A stretch of DNA of 64,000 nt from Limnothrix sp. FACHB-406 (GTDB lineage Bacteria > Cyanobacteriota > Cyanobacteriia > CACIAM-69d), in contig NZ_JACJSP010000022.1 in NCBI RefSeq assembly GCF_014698235.1, positions 1 to 64,000 of the forward strand, given 5' to 3'. Of the stretch, positions 42,606 to 53,599 are shown piece after piece. Both the position numbers and the translations under genes were made by a program. The notes under the pieces were generated by a model. It was not told the origin of the DNA. It saw nothing but the letters and a program-made list of their open reading frames with translations, and made no database searches. Within the stretch, counting starts at the first letter, position 1, and each line of letters begins with the position of its first letter.

Positions 42606-42678
42606 TCAAGCGCTAATCAAGCGCTAATCCTAACCCCTGAATTGCTGACCACCTTCCTAACCTGTTTCGGAGTCAACC

Positions 42679-42771: not shown

Positions 42772-42839
42772 CATCCCTATGCTGTTCAAGAAGTTCTGGC
42801 TCTAAAATTGTGTAAAGGTTAACTAACAGACACTTGGCT

Positions 42840-45800
42840 ATGAGTCTCAAAAATTTTCAAGCTGAAGTTATGCGCCTAGCGGGTGAAGCTGAGCAAATGC
42901 AGCGATCGCCGCGAGAGGGTAAACCAGAAGATGCTACCAAAAGCCGTTTATTAGAGCCTTTGCTCAATGCTTTGGGCTATACGCCCGAGTGTCGTACTCC
43001 AGAAGGAAAGATCAAAAGTCTAATTCGCACTACCACTTGGGTTGATTATTTGCTCAAGCCTGAAGCTGGTACTAGACCTGTGCTGATGTTTGAGGCGAAA
43101 AGTCTGTGGGATAAGGATATTTGGGAAAGCAATAAGCAGCAGGTTTTGGATTATTTGCGCGATTACAGCTTGGATATTGCTAATGATCAGCCTGTGTTAT
43201 GGATTGTTCTATCAAATTTTCGAGAATGGTATGTGTTGCGGTTGCAAGACAAGACACCATTCTGGCAGTTTAAGATTGAGAATTTGCAAAATGATCCTGA
43301 GTTGGGAGAACGGCTTTATAGTTGTTTAGCTAGGGAGAATTTACGCGGTGATCGCCTAACAGCTTACTATACAGAAAATACCAGAGAAGGCTTGGGCGCA
43401 AGGTTTCTAGCCGATTTAAAAATTTGGCGAGCAATTTTGGCGAATGGAATTAAAGCTTCACAGCCTGGGCTAAGTCTAGATCGAGTTAGAGAAGCTTCAC
43501 AGGTAATTCTCAATCGTTTTTTGTTGATTCGATTATTGGAAGCCTATAGTTCCGAAATGCCCTATAACTATTTAGGGAGAATTTATTACAATTGGCAAGA
43601 AACTTTTCCTGATTTGCCCTTTATCGAAGAGCTGCGTAAGGGATTTCGGAATACTTGGGTGGGCTATAATACGGAGCTTTTTCATCCCTCTTGGGTGGAT
43701 GAGTTAGACATTGAGAGCAATTATTTAGAGCCACTAATTATTGTTAATGCAGTACCTGAAAACGGGTTGCTGTATGCAATCACGGAAACTTTAACGGAAT
43801 ATCGTTCGATTTATAATTATGATTTCACAACTTTAACTCAGGATATTCTAGGAACTGCCTATGAGCAGTTTTTGGCTCACCAATTAATTGAAGATGGGCA
43901 TCAAGTCAAGATCCTCGAAAATCAACAAACTCGCAAGCGGGAGGGAGTTTTCTATACACCCGAATATATTGTGCGGCGGATTGTCTATCAAACTTTGCAG
44001 CCTTTGGTAGAAACAAAAATTGATCAGGCGATCGCTTTACTACAAGCCCATCATTTTACGGAAGCCCATGCGATTGCTAGTTCAGTTTTAGAAATCACTG
44101 TTTGCGATCCTGCCTGTGGTTCGGGATCGTTTCTATTAGGAGCTTTTGATTATTTATTAGATGAACTAAGGCGCTACAACAAGGCTTGTGAAAATCCCAA
44201 TTTAACTTCTGGTAATGGCGATTTATTTAGTCATTCAGCAGCAATTCCGATTAGTAATATCGAAGAAAGTATTGTCGTAAAAATGCTGCATGGTGTGGAT
44301 CTCGACCCGCAAGCAGTACTTTTAGCAAAGTTATCGCTATGGACAAGGTTACTTCGCGCTCGTCCTAATGTTTACGGTAAGCGAAAAACACTTAATTCTA
44401 AGTTGCCCGCACTGGCTTTAAATATTAGAGTTGGTAATAGTCTGATTCATTCGCCTGCAAATTTAGAGCCTGTATCTGAGCAGTTAGTAAGGGCTGCCGA
44501 TTTAGCAATTGCGGCTAGAAATGTGACTTTATCAGAACACGATCGCACTCAAGCGGTGACAAACTTAGAGCATTACATTGCCGAAATTAATCAACAAATT
44601 AATCCCACACTTGCTGCTTTCTTTGCTAGTGATGAGAGTTTACAAGAAGCAACTAAGTTGATTAAAAATCGCGAAGCTAGTGATAAAGAGGTTATTGCTA
44701 TTCGTCGTTATCTCACGTCAGAATCTCCGAGAGTCCTGCAAGATTGGACAGTTACCGAACTTGAGCGATTGAAAGCACAGTTAATGTTGATTCCTACGGC
44801 TTTAGAGGAAGCAATTATTAAGCGTCCTTTTAACTGGCAGGTAGAATTTCCTCATGTTTTTGATCCACGGTTACCAGTAGATCAAAGAGGTTTCACGTCA
44901 ATTATTGGCAATCCTCCATATTTCAGTGTCGATGCTACCTTTGGTAAAGGTGCATCGGAATTATTATGGTTTAAAACGATTTATGCAGATATTTACACTG
45001 ATAAAACTGATATTTTGTTTTATTTTTTGCGCTGGGGTTATGAATTGCTCAAGCAAGCAGGAACGTTGAGCTTTATTGTTTCCCGTGCTTTTATTCAGGG
45101 TGATAAATCAGAAAATCTACGCAACTTTCTCAGTCGAAATACGACAATTACTCATATTCTCGATTTCTTGGGTCACAAAGTTTTTAAAGCTGGAATCGCT
45201 ACTTGTATTATTCAATATCGAAAAGAAACCCCCGATATTGAAAGTAGTTTTATAACTGACTATGTCCTTGATTTTGACAAAGCTAAATCTGCAATTCCTA
45301 AAAAATTAGAATTATCTGCTCAAAATGGTTTTGCTAAAGTTGAAGTCAACCAGGAAAATCTAAAAGCCGATAGATGGGAAATTTCTCCCTATAGTCACAT
45401 CTTCGATGAAATTGATCACAAAGGTCAAAAACTAGAGCTATCTAATTATGGGAAATTTATAAAAGGAATAGATACGGGACTTGATGAAGTTTTTGAGGGT
45501 GATTTTAGTCGTAAATTTCCTAAAGAGTTTTTGCGTTCTAGAGTTTCAATTTCATCTATCCACAGCTTTGGACATAAACCTTCAGAGACCCAGATCATCT
45601 ATTATGGTCGAGATACTCAATGGGAAGATATTCCTAAAATCTTACAAAACCACCTGAAATCTCATCGTAATTCATTAGAGGCAAGAAAAGTTTTCAAATC
45701 TGGCGGCTATGAATGGTTTCATTTACATCGACCAAGAGTCGGATTGTTTGAGCCAAAAATATTTTTCCCACGCCGTGCCAATGCGAATAAATTCGCTGTT

Positions 45801-46703
45801 GATGAAGATGGATCATTAGGATTCAAAAGTGATGTTGCGGGCTTTGTAAAAGCTAAAAATGCAAGTATTGATACCCTTCATTACATTTGTGCTTTGCTCA
45901 ATTCTAAACCCTTAGAGTTTCGTTATAGAGCTTTGGGTGGGATTGGTAAGCTAACAGGAAAAGGGATGTTTGAATACTTTGAAAACCAAGTGGGTAATAT
46001 ACCGATTCCTGTATTTGAGGAACCAGAAAATAATTCCAACTTTCAAGAACTAGCACAACTTAGCAAAGAAGCCCATCAAATTTGGCGTGATCGCTACTCG
46101 ATCATCACTACTTACCAAGCTAAATTGTCAGCAATGCCATATACCGAAGTCGCTGCAACTCATTACCACAGCATCACAGGCGACTATGGTGCAGATGTGG
46201 AATATGAAAGTCCCAATCCTAACCGAGAAGGACATTTACTCTCGCTAAAAATTGAGCCGACCGTTGACGGTTATCGGCTGTTGGGAGAAATTACCGAAGA
46301 TGAAGATTGGAAAGAAGGCGATCGCGAATGGGTCGAACTTGTCACCGTGAGAATCCGTAATAACTTCCTGCGCCGCTATTTATTAGCTCGATTAATTTAT
46401 TTGATTGAATTTGATCAAGACTTTCGCCGTAAACAAAAGCTTACCCGCGATATTAATAACTTAGTAAATGCTGCTTTTGAAGCACTTAAGGTTTATCAAT
46501 ACGATCATGATCGCATTAGTAACTTGCGCGTCCTTGAAGTCATTGAACAACGAGTGCAACAAGAAGCAGGGCGATCGGACTTAGAGAATATTGTGTTGCG
46601 ACAAGCCGAGATTCAATTGAGTATTGATCAAATTGCTTACAGGTTATATGGGGTCAGTGAATACCAAGAAGTAATTGAACAAGCCCTCAAAGTTACTCTT
46701 TAA
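42840..46703 (+). CDS. Single-chain restriction-modification enzyme (type IIG-like, Eco57I-type methylase)
   Basis: A 1287-aa protein. The N-terminal domain (about 20-200) looks like a PD-(D/E)XK nuclease of the HsdR-N type: Asp69 in WVDYLL and Glu85-x-Lys87 in MFEAKS. The central adenine-N6 methyltransferase has motif I DPACGSGSFLLGAF from about residue 423 and motif IV NPPY at about 691. A target recognition region follows (about 850-1100), then a C-terminal extension. Restriction and modification are thus probably in one chain. The gene is AT-rich compared with its neighbours, has only three HIP1 octamers over 3.9 kb, and sits between housekeeping genes, which points to horizontal acquisition. 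ATG 42840. Confidence 0.9.
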   Translation: MSLKNFQAEVMRLAGEAEQMQRSPREGKPEDATKSRLLEPLLNALGYTPECRTPEGKIKSLIRTTTWVDYLLKPEAGTRPVLMFEAKSLWDKDIWESNKQQVLDYLRDYSLDIANDQPVLWIVLSNFREWYVLRLQDKTPFWQFKIENLQNDPELGERLYSCLARENLRGDRLTAYYTENTREGLGARFLADLKIWRAILANGIKASQPGLSLDRVREASQVILNRFLLIRLLEAYSSEMPYNYLGRIYYNWQETFPDLPFIEELRKGFRNTWVGYNTELFHPSWVDELDIESNYLEPLIIVNAVPENGLLYAITETLTEYRSIYNYDFTTLTQDILGTAYEQFLAHQLIEDGHQVKILENQQTRKREGVFYTPEYIVRRIVYQTLQPLVETKIDQAIALLQAHHFTEAHAIASSVLEITVCDPACGSGSFLLGAFDYLLDELRRYNKACENPNLTSGNGDLFSHSAAIPISNIEESIVVKMLHGVDLDPQAVLLAKLSLWTRLLRARPNVYGKRKTLNSKLPALALNIRVGNSLIHSPANLEPVSEQLVRAADLAIAARNVTLSEHDRTQAVTNLEHYIAEINQQINPTLAAFFASDESLQEATKLIKNREASDKEVIAIRRYLTSESPRVLQDWTVTELERLKAQLMLIPTALEEAIIKRPFNWQVEFPHVFDPRLPVDQRGFTSIIGNPPYFSVDATFGKGASELLWFKTIYADIYTDKTDILFYFLRWGYELLKQAGTLSFIVSRAFIQGDKSENLRNFLSRNTTITHILDFLGHKVFKAGIATCIIQYRKETPDIESSFITDYVLDFDKAKSAIPKKLELSAQNGFAKVEVNQENLKADRWEISPYSHIFDEIDHKGQKLELSNYGKFIKGIDTGLDEVFEGDFSRKFPKEFLRSRVSISSIHSFGHKPSETQIIYYGRDTQWEDIPKILQNHLKSHRNSLEARKVFKSGGYEWFHLHRPRVGLFEPKIFFPRRANANKFAVDEDGSLGFKSDVAGFVKAKNASIDTLHYICALLNSKPLEFRYRALGGIGKLTGKGMFEYFENQVGNIPIPVFEEPENNSNFQELAQLSKEAHQIWRDRYSIITTYQAKLSAMPYTEVAATHYHSITGDYGADVEYESPNPNREGHLLSLKIEPTVDGYRLLGEITEDEDWKEGDREWVELVTVRIRNNFLRRYLLARLIYLIEFDQDFRRKQKLTRDINNLVNAAFEALKVYQYDHDRISNLRVLEVIEQRVQQEAGRSDLENIVLRQAEIQLSIDQIAYRLYGVSEYQEVIEQALKVTL

Positions 46704-46713
46704 AACTGAAGGA

Positions 46714-48360
46714 TTATGAATAGAATTCGTCTTGACGTTGCGAGAGCCAGATAACTACTAGGGATACCACCACCGATAGCGGCGTGAGCCAGTCACCCCA
46801 GCGGACATAGGGGGTTTGGCGGGTGCGGCGATAGATTTCGGTGGCGTGGAGTTCGTAGACATTGGGGCGCGATCGCCAGTGGGTGACTCCGTGCGGATCG
46901 ATGAAGGCGGAATAGCCGGTGTTGGCGGCGCGGGCCACCCATCGATCGGTTTCAATCGCCCGCATCACGTCTTGGGCGTGGTGTTGGGCAAACATCGTGG
47001 GCCGGTAATGGGCGTTGTTGGCTGCTGAGAGGATGAATTGCCCGCCGCCGGCCGCCTGCGATCGCGCCAACTCCGCATGGGCTGAGTCATAGCAAATCAA
47101 GGCGATCGCCTGGCCAAAGGGAGTGTTGAGGCGCTGATTGGGCTGGCCGAGGGCCAACTTGGTGTCCAGCGGCGATAGCCGATCGATCAAGCCGCCGATC
47201 ACAGACTCAAAGGGAATATATTCCCCCAGGGGCACAAGGCGCACTTTGTCATAGCGACCCACGGCTTTTCCGGTGCGATCGAGGGAGATGAGGCTGTTGG
47301 TGAGGCGATCGGGTTGCTGGCGATCGGGCGCAAACAGGCCCAACCACACGGGCACAGCCCGATCGAGCACTGCCGACAGGAATTCATTGCGTCGATCGCG
47401 AGTGGCCTCCGCTGTCCAGACCATTGGCAAGGCCGTTTCGGGAATCAACACGCCGTCAACGCCCGCCTCTGCAAGAGTTTCATAGCCCCGTTGATAGCCC
47501 GTGAGGGCCCTGCGCCAACCTTCGGAGCCAAATTTCAGATCGTTGGGAATATTGCCTTGGATTACCCCGATCGTCAGGGCCGCAGCGGGGCGATCGGCTA
47601 AGGGTTGGGCAGCCAAAGCGGCCCCCAAGCCATGGCCCAACAGCAACAGCGCGATCGCCCCGGCCCACCAACGCCGCCGATGGGTCAACCAAGCTTCTGC
47701 CCAGGCTCCATTCACCCCCACAATCACCGCCGTTACCAGGGCGGGGCCCGACAATTGGCCCAAGTGCAAAATCGCTAAGTTATGAGGCGCTTGGGTCAGG
47801 CCCAATCCCGTCCAAGCCAAGGGAGATTGGTTCCAGAGCCATTCCGTCACCAACCACAGGGCTAGGCCCAGCGCCCAGCGTCCGCCGGCCGATCGCCCCG
47901 CCAATTTGCGGTGTAGCAGCCCAAACCCCACCGCCCAGCAGGCGACCTGTGACCCGGCCCAACCGGCCGCCACCAACCAGCACACCAGGGCAATGGTGAG
48001 GCTGGTGGCCCAGGACACTCCCAGCCACATCATGGGATGTAGGCCCGTGAGCCAAAACACCGCCACGAGGTTGTAGCCCAAACCCCAAAGCCAGCCCAAC
48101 CCGAGTCGATCGCGCCAATTGAGCGTTGGGTTTGCCAGCAACCACCACAGCGGGGCGATCGCCACCCAGGGGAGCGGCCACCAGCCCACCGGCTCCGGCC
48201 CCAGCCCCATCACCACCCCAGCCCCCAAGGCCAGAGCCGATCGCTGCCAACGACTCCACAGCGATCGTCTTGGCCCTGGCTCGCCAGCGGTGGGCGCAAC
48301 GCCGCTGGCCCAACGACTCAGAAAATCCGTGCCTTGCCCCCCGGTTTTGCGACCAAACAC
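46714..48360 (-). CDS. lnt: Apolipoprotein N-acyltransferase
   Basis: A 548-aa membrane enzyme that adds the third acyl chain to lipoproteins. After a Gly/Arg-rich tail there are about six to seven membrane helices and then a nitrilase-like periplasmic domain. The catalytic triad is visible: Glu308 in PETALPMV, Lys372 in YDKVRLVPLGEY and Cys423 in LICYDSAHAE. A last helix closes the protein. The start is GTG 48360, three bases after the upstream small gene's stop. It ends 11 bp from the convergent restriction-modification gene. Confidence 0.95.
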   Translation of the reverse strand: MFGRKTGGQGTDFLSRWASGVAPTAGEPGPRRSLWSRWQRSALALGAGVVMGLGPEPVGWWPLPWVAIAPLWWLLANPTLNWRDRLGLGWLWGLGYNLVAVFWLTGLHPMMWLGVSWATSLTIALVCWLVAAGWAGSQVACWAVGFGLLHRKLAGRSAGGRWALGLALWLVTEWLWNQSPLAWTGLGLTQAPHNLAILHLGQLSGPALVTAVIVGVNGAWAEAWLTHRRRWWAGAIALLLLGHGLGAALAAQPLADRPAAALTIGVIQGNIPNDLKFGSEGWRRALTGYQRGYETLAEAGVDGVLIPETALPMVWTAEATRDRRNEFLSAVLDRAVPVWLGLFAPDRQQPDRLTNSLISLDRTGKAVGRYDKVRLVPLGEYIPFESVIGGLIDRLSPLDTKLALGQPNQRLNTPFGQAIALICYDSAHAELARSQAAGGGQFILSAANNAHYRPTMFAQHHAQDVMRAIETDRWVARAANTGYSAFIDPHGVTHWRSRPNVYELHATEIYRRTRQTPYVRWGDWLTPLSVVVSLVVIWLSQRQDEFYS

Positions 48361-49450: not shown

Positions 49451-50764
49451 CTAACTCCTGTCTACACAAACCAGCGGCAACTCAATCATAAAGGTTGTGC
49501 CCGCCCCTAACTGGGACTCCAACCACAATCGACCGCCATGCTTTTCTTCAATCACTTGTCGAGACAGGGTTAAGCCCAAGCCGGTTCCTTTGCCAACCAA
49601 TTTAGTTGTAAATAAATGCTCAAAAATTTGGCTTTGTAGCTCCTCAGCAATGCCGCGCCCGTTGTCCTGGATGGATAGGTGAACCGATTTTTGATCCGCC
49701 GAGAGGGCAGTGGTGATGATGATTTGGGGGGGATTTTCGCTGAGCGCCTGGACAGGGCGATCGCGGCAAGCTTCATCCAGTTCATCGATCGCGTTAGCCA
49801 GCAAATTCATAAACACCTGATTCAGTTGACCGGCAAAGCATTCCACTTCAGGCACATCACCATAGTTTTTAATGACCTGAATGGCAGGCCGATGATCATG
49901 GGACTTCAGGCGATGTTTTAACGGTAAAATTGTGCTGTCCAATCCATCTTGCAAATCAAAACTAACTGGATATTCACTATCTAAGCGCGAGAAGGTTCTT
50001 AAGCTATCACTAATCGTTTTAATGCGATCAATTCCCTGATTCATCGACTCCAAAAGCTTGGGCAAGTCCTGGCGAATGAATTCTAAATCCACTTCTTCAA
50101 TGAGTTGTTGCACCTGCTGATGGGGATCGGGATGATGTTCCGCATAGGCATCCAACAGGGCAAACAGATCCTCCAGGTGCTCCAATGCAGGGCGAATATT
50201 GCCCTTTAAAAACCCCAAAGGATTATTAATTTCATGGGCCACCCCGGCGACCAAATTCCCCAGGGCCGACATTTTTTCACTTTGTACCAGTTGAATTTGC
50301 GCTTGCTGAAGCTGTTCCACCACCTGCTCGAGGGTCGTGGACTTTTCTAAGAGCTGAGCCTCGGATTCTTGCAAACGTCGTTCGGCCATCACTCGATCGG
50401 TCACATTCTGGGCGATCGAGTAAATGGATAGCATCTGATCTTGGTCATCAAAAACCGGCGTGTTAATCCATTCACAAATAATGACACTGCCGTCTTTGCA
50501 GATATTCTCATTTTGACAAACAACCGTTTTTCGCTCCTCTAGCAGGGCCACCATCAGCGGCTTAATTTCGGTTTGCACGGTTGGCGACACGATACGGCTA
50601 ACCGGTTGTAGATAAATTTCTTCCGCAGAATAGCCAAAGATTTTTTCGGCAGCCGGGTTCCAACTGATGACACAGAAATCTTGGTTCCATTCAATCAGCG
50701 CTAAGGGGGTTTGCTGAATCAGGAAACTGAGTTTTTCAGTGATGCCAAGAAACTGGTTTGACAT
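49451..50764 (-). CDS. PAS domain sensor histidine kinase
   Basis: A 437-aa soluble kinase. An N-terminal PAS domain (about 10-125) has IEWNQDFCVISWNPAAEKIFGYSAEEI, and a short coiled coil (about 130-165) follows. The dimerisation domain carries the phospho-acceptor His177 in GVAHEINNPLG, and the HATPase domain has NLLANAIDELDEA, DNGRGIAEE and GKGTGLGLTLSRQV. It has no transmembrane segment. Its transmitter is closely similar to the C-terminal kinase half of the 1807-aa protein 3-9 kb away. It may lead an operon with PP2C, the small membrane gene and lnt. Confidence 0.93.
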   Translation of the reverse strand: MSNQFLGITEKLSFLIQQTPLALIEWNQDFCVISWNPAAEKIFGYSAEEIYLQPVSRIVSPTVQTEIKPLMVALLEERKTVVCQNENICKDGSVIICEWINTPVFDDQDQMLSIYSIAQNVTDRVMAERRLQESEAQLLEKSTTLEQVVEQLQQAQIQLVQSEKMSALGNLVAGVAHEINNPLGFLKGNIRPALEHLEDLFALLDAYAEHHPDPHQQVQQLIEEVDLEFIRQDLPKLLESMNQGIDRIKTISDSLRTFSRLDSEYPVSFDLQDGLDSTILPLKHRLKSHDHRPAIQVIKNYGDVPEVECFAGQLNQVFMNLLANAIDELDEACRDRPVQALSENPPQIIITTALSADQKSVHLSIQDNGRGIAEELQSQIFEHLFTTKLVGKGTGLGLTLSRQVIEEKHGGRLWLESQLGAGTTFMIELPLVCVDRS

Positions 50765-51372
50765 AACAGTCAGTTGTTGAATGGAAGGAAAATTAGCAAT
50801 CTTGCTGAGTCGATGTCTGAAAAGCGTCTTGGATTATTTACCAAGCACGAATCATCACGAAGGCAAGGAGCTTAAGCCCCTTATTTGCGATGACACCTGA
50901 AAGGAGTAGCTATGGCTTTTCAGACATCTACTTAGGGATAACGCTTAGCAAGCTATCCAAACACTAAACATCAAACAATCAGCCCAGGACAGACCATAGT
51001 TATGAATATCTGTATTGGATTGAATATTTATAAAGAGTACCAGCGTATTAGAACTTTAAATTTGAGTTGCAAAATGTGCAAATAGCACCAAGTATCCTCC
51101 AATCTTAACGGATGATCCGAATGGCCGCCGTAAATTTGTGATATTTGTAGTTAAAGTTTCGATAATGCATCATCACAAATTAATCCCCCACCTTAGCTGC
51201 CGATCAGTGGTGCGTTAAAGTTCTGGAGTGATTTTGCTCAATTTTTCGCCAAAAATCAGCAGAGATGCGATTAGCGCGAAATTTCAACTCCGTTCGGGTC
51301 AAGGCGCGTTCCTTCGCCATGGAGATTCACCGGCTGCGATCGCCCGTTCCAGCGGTTCTAAACTGATTTTGC
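50765..51372. other. AT-rich gap with MITE-like element
   Basis: A 608-bp gene-free region upstream of the histidine kinase. It holds the inverted-repeat element at 50808-50932, described separately. The rest (50950-51200) is AT-rich with no ORF recognised. Confidence 0.5.
50808..50932. mobile_element. MITE-like 125-bp inverted-repeat element
   Basis: The ends are an 18-bp inverted repeat, AGTCGATGTCTGAAAAGC on the left and GCTTTTCAGACATCTACT on the right, with one mismatch. The middle contains a near-palindrome around GCTTAAGC (50870-50877). No transposase is encoded and no target-site duplication is evident. The size and termini fit a non-autonomous element, moved in trans by an insertion-sequence transposase outside the window. 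Confidence 0.5.
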
Positions 51373-53500: not shown

Positions 53501-53531
53501 TTGACACCTGACCAAAAGAAATTGCTAAGCT
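53501..53531 (+). promoter_or_regulatory. Candidate promoter of the hybrid kinase gene
   Basis: A perfect TTGACA (53501-53506) is followed after 19 bp by TAAGCT (53526-53531), 69 bp before the ATG of the 1807-aa kinase. The spacing is long for a standard promoter, so this is a weak call. A GCGATCAAAAAA direct repeat lies upstream at about 53410-53437. Confidence 0.3.
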
Positions 53532-53599
53532 AGATGTCTGAGTTGATGAAAACACGATCAATTTCAACTCTATCAACGCTTCATCACGGATTAATTTAG

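Follow-up and report, generated by a model that had tools for sequence, protein, structure and literature searches.

The element upstream of a histidine kinase gene in Limnothrix sp. FACHB-406 is, with a probability that we put at about 75%, an old and immobile IS5-type MITE (family A) containing a shared palindromic module, P, which serves as the preferred landing site of a second MITE family (family C) and is supplied anew by that same family. Under this reading, the element would be a non-autonomous family A copy that was once mobilised in trans by an IS5-type transposase, and P would be a module of approximately 24 bp common to several otherwise unrelated MITE families. Family C would land at the central TTAA of P while carrying a P of its own in its centre. 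Each family C insertion would split one P and deliver another, so that landing sites would not be exhausted and elements would nest in each other and in their own kind. Families A and B may have kept or received P because it is a harmless landing and recombination site and a strong hairpin.

The element upstream of the histidine kinase gene and its family

The window, that is, the whole stretch of 64,000 nucleotides that was analysed, had been the subject of a sequence-only reading, which described an element with inverted termini at 50808-50932 (125 bp). The inverted repeats are real, with 21-nt arms at 50805-50825 and 50915-50935 that are 90% complementary, and a 14-bp word, GATGTCTGAAAAGC, is perfect at both ends (50812-50825 on the + strand and 50915-50928 on the - strand). 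Comparison with other copies of its family shifted the borders one base inward on each side, to 50809-50931 (123 bp), so that the 21-nt arms end, on the outside, in C-TNA-G target context that is not part of the terminus. The central palindrome described earlier is present (50865-50876 / 50871-50882), and no open reading frame of at least 80 amino acids overlaps the element, in agreement with the proposed lack of coding capacity. Its position upstream of the kinase gene was also borne out, with 44 bp between the start codon (50764) and the element. The features of the window are as follows.

49451-50764, - strand: PAS-HisKA-HATPase histidine kinase gene, start codon 44 bp from the element (list of open reading frames, Pfam)
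50806-50808, no strand: left flanking triplet of a TNA-type target-site duplication, TGA (TTA in the ortholog of congener G042) (sequence and congener copies)
50809-50931, - strand (oriented as in the family alignment): decayed family A MITE of 123 bp, without coding capacity (16-copy alignment)
50809-50825, + strand: left terminal inverted repeat, GTCGATGTCTGAAAAGC, against GAGGATGTCTGAAAAGC in the family consensus (repeat search, alignment)
50862-50885, no strand: central palindromic cassette with an 18-bp core at 50865-50882, AAGGAGCTTAAGCCCCTT, one mismatch from the consensus AAGGGGCTTAAGCCCCTT
50915-50931, - strand: right terminal inverted repeat, with the - strand sequence GTAGATGTCTGAAAAGC (repeat search, alignment)
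50932-50934, no strand: right flanking triplet of a TNA-type target-site duplication, TTA (sequence and congener comparison)
50997-50998, no strand: TA at which G042 holds a 117-bp MITE (D) that is missing in the window (alignment with G042)
42614-42626, no strand: site in an 11-bp direct repeat at which G042 holds a family C MITE (palindrome, TA duplication) that the window lacks (alignment with G042)

BLAST of the element against its own genome (4.50 Mb, 38 contigs) returned 82 matches, many of them to the palindrome only, and other full-length copies exist. The terminal word was found, at up to 2 mismatches, 44+42 times in this genome, compared to 13+4 times for a reversed control. By hand count, a sample of 864 kb (the window and 800 kb from contigs C1 and C2) held 15 hits to family A (at least 36 bits), 8 to family B and 5 to family C (at least 40 bits), and 16 chosen family A copies could be aligned over their full length. 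Folding of the two element strands gave z scores of -5.75 and -6.06 against 200 dinucleotide shuffles, none of which folded as well. The element is thus short, non-coding, multicopy and bounded by terminal inverted repeats, and it is a MITE.

The ends of family A, GAGGATGTCTGAAAAG, match those of a 933-bp IS5-family insertion sequence (L174) from another genus, whose 16-bp ends are identical to the family A consensus and flank a transposase gene (NF033580, E 5.5e-43; PF13340 and PF01609; frame cut short at 188 aa). The single-copy state, with no insertion sequence bearing these termini, that the sequence-only reading had named as fatal to its proposal was thus not what we found. L174, with its shortened frame and from another genus, is an autonomous-type insertion sequence that shares these ends, and by sharing them with an IS5-family transposase gene family A qualifies as IS5-derived (IS1031-like); it was probably moved in trans by a transposase of the IS5 type. 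As to a parent within the own genome, only distant transposase relatives were found there (45% identity), one of which (L273) has other ends, and these were rejected as parents. Likewise, the own-genome stretches examined held no two family A ends at a spacing of 500-3000 bp, as expected for a full-length parent, and a pair of B-type ends 2143 bp apart, considered as an insertion sequence, turned out to be two separate family B copies.

A 3-bp TNA duplication is a feature of the IS1031 group. Exact TNA duplications flank four of the six family A copies listed from the two congeners G042 and G291 (L183, TGA/TGA; L184, TAA/TAA; L187, TAA/TAA; L190, TTA/TTA), and the G042 ortholog of the window copy also has TTA/TTA, so that target-site duplication is seen in the family. 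In the own genome, identical triplets flank 3 of the 16 aligned copies and TNA stands on both sides of 6 of 16; the window copy has TGA/TTA, and the triplets of L174, TTA/TCA, are not identical. In two other genera, two MITEs each (L177-L180) have the same end type and exact TNA duplications in all four cases, with unrelated interiors in which, on reading, P is absent. It is extremely improbable that the structure is no transposable element but an inverted repeat arisen by chance or one isolated REP-like structure: the decay of this copy and its differing triplets would suit such a view, but multicopy ends, TNA duplications in the congeners and an insertion sequence with the same ends oppose it.

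In G042, the element lies at the same place, with 91% identity over the neighbourhood, and this orthologous copy indicates that the window copy is old, predating the split from G042, and decayed. The earlier suggestion of looking for empty sites in other strains yielded none for the window copy, as G042 has the element and G291 has no match to the flanks. Differences between the genomes were found at other places. The 117-bp MITE D (G042 C14:36842-36958, L172), with a TA duplication and ends CAGCCYTTACCTC, is absent at window 50997-50998, and own C1:200581 has a family B element where the G042 flanks are continuous. The middle of MITE D holds another palindrome, GGTGAGCAATGCCCACC, and single ends similar to those of MITE D occur near the DDE_3 transposase genes L351 and L352 of G042. 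Separately, window 42772-46774, which by Pfam includes an Eco57I-like restriction-modification gene of 1289 aa, is without a match at the equivalent position of G042, and a sequence of about 75 bp left of own C2 57548, not recognised as A-C, has dozens of matches in both G042 and G291.

It was also considered whether the element has been retained because it works in the regulation of the histidine kinase gene, as a promoter, an insulator or an RNA hairpin, which we regard as improbable. The short distance to the start codon and the presence of the element in the congener favour this view, as do the stem changes in both species, which on the kinase transcript strand still allow a G-U pair; in the window, the cassette stem is preserved in the - strand RNA in this manner. 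However, this is a single locus, and a strand rule by which decayed palindromes keep G-U pairs, while it fits the window locus in two species, is contradicted by two other decayed copies (C1:227607 and C1:315150) and was rejected. No promoter-like match was found within the element, no known RNA family was recognised at it (a single Rfam row lay far below its cut-off), and the element had no match in plasmid and phage records. The word TAGATGTCTGAG, which the sequence-only reading had noted for its likeness to the terminus, does occur exactly at 53531-53542, upstream of a 1807-aa kinase gene, with 0.11 matches expected at up to one mismatch; since the family profile recognised no second family A element in the window, including at 53531, this word is probably unrelated to the element. 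Taken alone, the finding at the window locus is an ordinary one, a decayed MITE of the IS5 type that lies upstream of a kinase gene.

A palindrome common to several MITE families

The palindrome at the centre of the element is 18-24 bp long, with the consensus (AAC)AAGGGGCTTAAGCCCCTT(GCC) and a central TTAA. It is much more abundant than the family A element itself, a separate repeat status that had escaped the sequence-only reading, which saw the palindrome as such. Exact AAGGGGCTTAAGCCCCTT occurs 109 times in the own genome and 252 times in G042, compared to 0 for a reversed-pattern control, and a one-mismatch form gave 165 forward matches in the own genome at up to 3 mismatches. In a sample of 291 genomes of the phylum, from 115 genera, exact P occurred in 16 genomes and 12 genera, a patchy distribution, and a closing-pair variant with a TTTNAA middle was present in 10 of the 291 genomes. 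In G054, from a distant genus, this variant (45 copies) outnumbers the CTTAAG form (19 copies).

At least three MITE families of the own genome, with different ends and duplications, have P at their middle. Family A has IS5-type ends and a TNA duplication; family B measures 140 bp between CTAG duplications (CTAC in one copy); family C measures 142 bp in a G042 copy, with ends GGGCCTGTCGTCA and a TA duplication. P is also found in repeats of other genera, and alone between genes. A scan of named genomes with the 24-mer of P gave at least 80 loci, and their ends were read by eye in the 31 listed. Among these listed matches, the 24-mer AACAAGGGGCTTAAGCCCCTTGCC occurs in repeats of Leptolyngbya sp. 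PCC 6406 and Phormidium sp. FACHB-1136 with ends TATAGCGGTT..., and other ends bound the P-bearing repeats of Snowella (AAGCTGT...), Pseudanabaena (GCAGCTTGTA...) and Leptolyngbya RL_3_1 (CTAGTACTCG...). Some listed copies (e.g. L239, L221) have no such ends, and copies resembling families A and C occur in Limnothrix sp. CACIAM 69d (L256, L226, L245). One 24-mer copy (L261:1478-1501) lies outside cyanobacteria, on a contig labelled Candidatus Coatesbacteria, by transfer, contamination or binning error. In the own genome, P also occurs twice in frame in a fused hydantoinase A/B (oxoprolinase-like) gene (C1:252862-256659; L090:12862-16659), at about codon 697 and, with one mismatch, at about codon 736, in the linker between two domains.

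Beyond P, the similarity between B and C is clear (0 and 1 of 200 column shuffles reach that of the two near flanks), that between A and C is weak (12 and 4 of 200 for the near flanks, with the left far flank, at 7 of 200, no different), and that between A and B is absent (187 and 21 of 200). A larger core common to A, B and C was therefore rejected, as the flank shuffles support B-C only and A-C weakly. P is a repeat separate from the MITE arms, used as a module by several families.

In the 16-copy alignment, several members of which were chosen through the palindrome, divergence from the consensus was 21-43% in the interior arms, 0-17% in P and 8-22% in the ends. A fairer test, for that reason, is a set of 19 different copies of family A that had been selected through their arms or ends, in which P was exact in 8, had one mismatch in 3, two in 1, three in 4 and five or more in 3. 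By these comparisons, P is better conserved than the family A arms. In the window copy and its G042 ortholog alike, P has changed, no slower than the remainder.

One explanation for such a distribution is that P itself is a very small mobile element, comparable to the small dispersed repeats reported from Nostoc, which hopped into each MITE family separately with the MITEs as mere vehicles. This idea draws on the 24-bp unit common to repeats with different ends in many genera, on the solitary copies and those in frame within a gene, and on the patchy distribution. We consider it rather unlikely, because P stands near the middle of A, B and C and not at random places, and because solitary copies gave no empty site: at six aligned loci (of seven queried), G042 has P or a changed form in all six, as does G291 at all three aligned solitary loci.

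Another explanation is that P is a host 3'-end hairpin or bidirectional terminator, so that MITEs capturing it were better tolerated, and that selection rather than insertion explains its spread and conservation. In 800 kb, 29 positions of P (up to 2 mismatches) were found, 26 of them intergenic by crude ORF calls, and 12 of these 26 lie between convergent genes, which hold 17% of the intergenic bases (p 6e-4). This position fits a terminator role, or a selection against insertions near promoters. Furthermore, P forms a strong hairpin and is better conserved than the arms, and its solitary copies mostly retain their stems while the loops change between species (TTAA/TGAA/TTCA). However, compared to an intrinsic terminator, defined by a GC-rich hairpin followed by a U-run, P has the hairpin and no U-run after the stem; a terminator scan, run at the window copy, found none there. 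The stem is broken in G042 at C2:85646, convergent gaps would also be favoured by selection against promoter damage, and the gene calls are crude ORFs. A terminator role is thus possible, though we do not hold it to be the probable one.

Family C junctions at the palindrome

The reading preferred here, in which P is a landing site of family C, is based on the junctions between the two. The junction of a half-P with a family C end (AAGGGGCTTA joined to GGGCCTGTCG, up to 3 mismatches in 20) was found 21 times in the own genome, 88 times in G042 and 158 times in G291, compared to 0, 1 and 1 for the respective controls; half elements repeated in tandem raise the figures for G042 and G291. The own genome has 58 family C-type ends (control, 6), of which 13 abut a half-P at up to 2 mismatches in the 20-base junction and 45 lie outside P at that threshold. 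When family C ends were counted in the own-genome sample together with 60 kb from G042, the result was too noisy and was discarded (53 end-like words that had a partner or a palindrome close by, 6 after TA and 2 after half-P); that material held a single element with half-P on both sides (C1:238032-238220).

Upon retrieval, 29 of 30 junction loci were re-found, and 16 of them showed both junctions, representing 14 distinct elements since L327/L330 and L328/L337 are identical. The inserts were 111-230 bp long, with duplications of TA/TA in 11 of 16 and TA/TC in 5 of 16. A palindrome of their own was present in 10 of the 16 inserts and absent in 6. When the insert was left out, P was restored exactly in 5 loci; a single mismatch was left in 10 loci and three mismatches in 1. 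The host could then be recognised by profile as family A (e.g. L323, L344, L340), B (L335) or C (L324, L333, L339). Together, the junctions, the restored palindromes and the recognised hosts indicate that family C-type elements insert into the central TTAA of P, inside copies of A and B and of their own kind. In addition, the TA of G042 that corresponds to about window 42614-42626 is occupied by a family C element that the window lacks.

In the other 13 re-found loci, the right junction was not recognised, and several of them consist of a left C half, a palindrome and the other arm of the host (e.g. L331, L332, L342). Head-to-tail units of 68 bp, three in a row, starting with a half palindrome and a family C end, were found in G042 (C80:28925-29080). 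Similar head-to-tail units occur in G291 (C100:53901-54004), with sizes of 68 to 84 bp across the two congeners. We infer that the half-C loci and the head-to-tail units fit recombination between palindrome halves. Going further, P could be a reusable landing pad borne by its invaders, with recombination between P copies passing P and arms between families of different transposases across many cyanobacterial genera; we put this forward tentatively, as a possibility that falls short of being probable.

The TA duplication, the one feature that points this way, suggests that family C may be of IS630 nature. Family C ends beside the DDE_3 genes of the genus gave single weak matches only, so that no family C transposase was found among these genes.

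Relation to known systems

MITEs are normally explained family by family, by ends borrowed from one insertion sequence. Here the ends differ while the middle is the same, and one of the families uses that middle as its target. If this is true, short elements would have a simple route for finding harmless sites repeatedly, and MITE families could trade parts, which is testable in cultured cyanobacteria. As far as we searched the literature, a palindrome common to MITE families and supplied again by its own invader was not found described, nor were the letters of P or its variants found printed there.

The small dispersed repeats that Elhai is said to have described in Nostoc in 2008 are reportedly units of 21-27 nt, often in mini-transposons and some of them self-nested. 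By this description (21-27 nt, dispersed, nested in other repeats), the 24-bp unit of P is alike in size and nesting and may even be the same as one of them; different from these repeats, P is a near-perfect palindrome serving as a transposition target. Family A is comparable to the IS1031-like group of the IS5 family, through the transposase of L174 (NF033580 / PF13340 and PF01609), a 933-bp sequence whose 16-bp ends equal the family A consensus, and through the 3-bp TNA duplication, shared in congener copies. Different from L174, family A is non-coding, and it has a central P, which the four MITEs of two other genera with the same end type lack. Like Nezha and other cyanobacterial MITEs, family A is non-coding, short and multicopy with terminal inverted repeats.

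The insertion of small elements into one another is already known (PMC10969869). According to PMC2170065, ISY100 of Synechocystis (IS630/Tc1-mariner) inserts into and duplicates TA. Families C and D share the TA duplication with ISY100-like elements as far as that source describes them; unlike the ISY100 insertions at TA dinucleotides reported in it, those of family C are strongly enriched at one palindrome, which family C also carries. The tag that marks a REP/REPIN, GTAG or CGTC at the palindrome foot (PMC3733652), is absent from P; in the listed copies, AAC and GCC or near variants of them stand on either side of P. Insertion sequences are reported to target REP palindromes specifically (Tobes and Pareja 2006, PMC1525189), which resembles the present case in that an abundant extragenic palindrome is the specific site of insertion. 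Different from the REP-targeting insertion sequences as described there, the invader here would be a MITE carrying the same palindrome, and many of its targets lie inside other MITEs.
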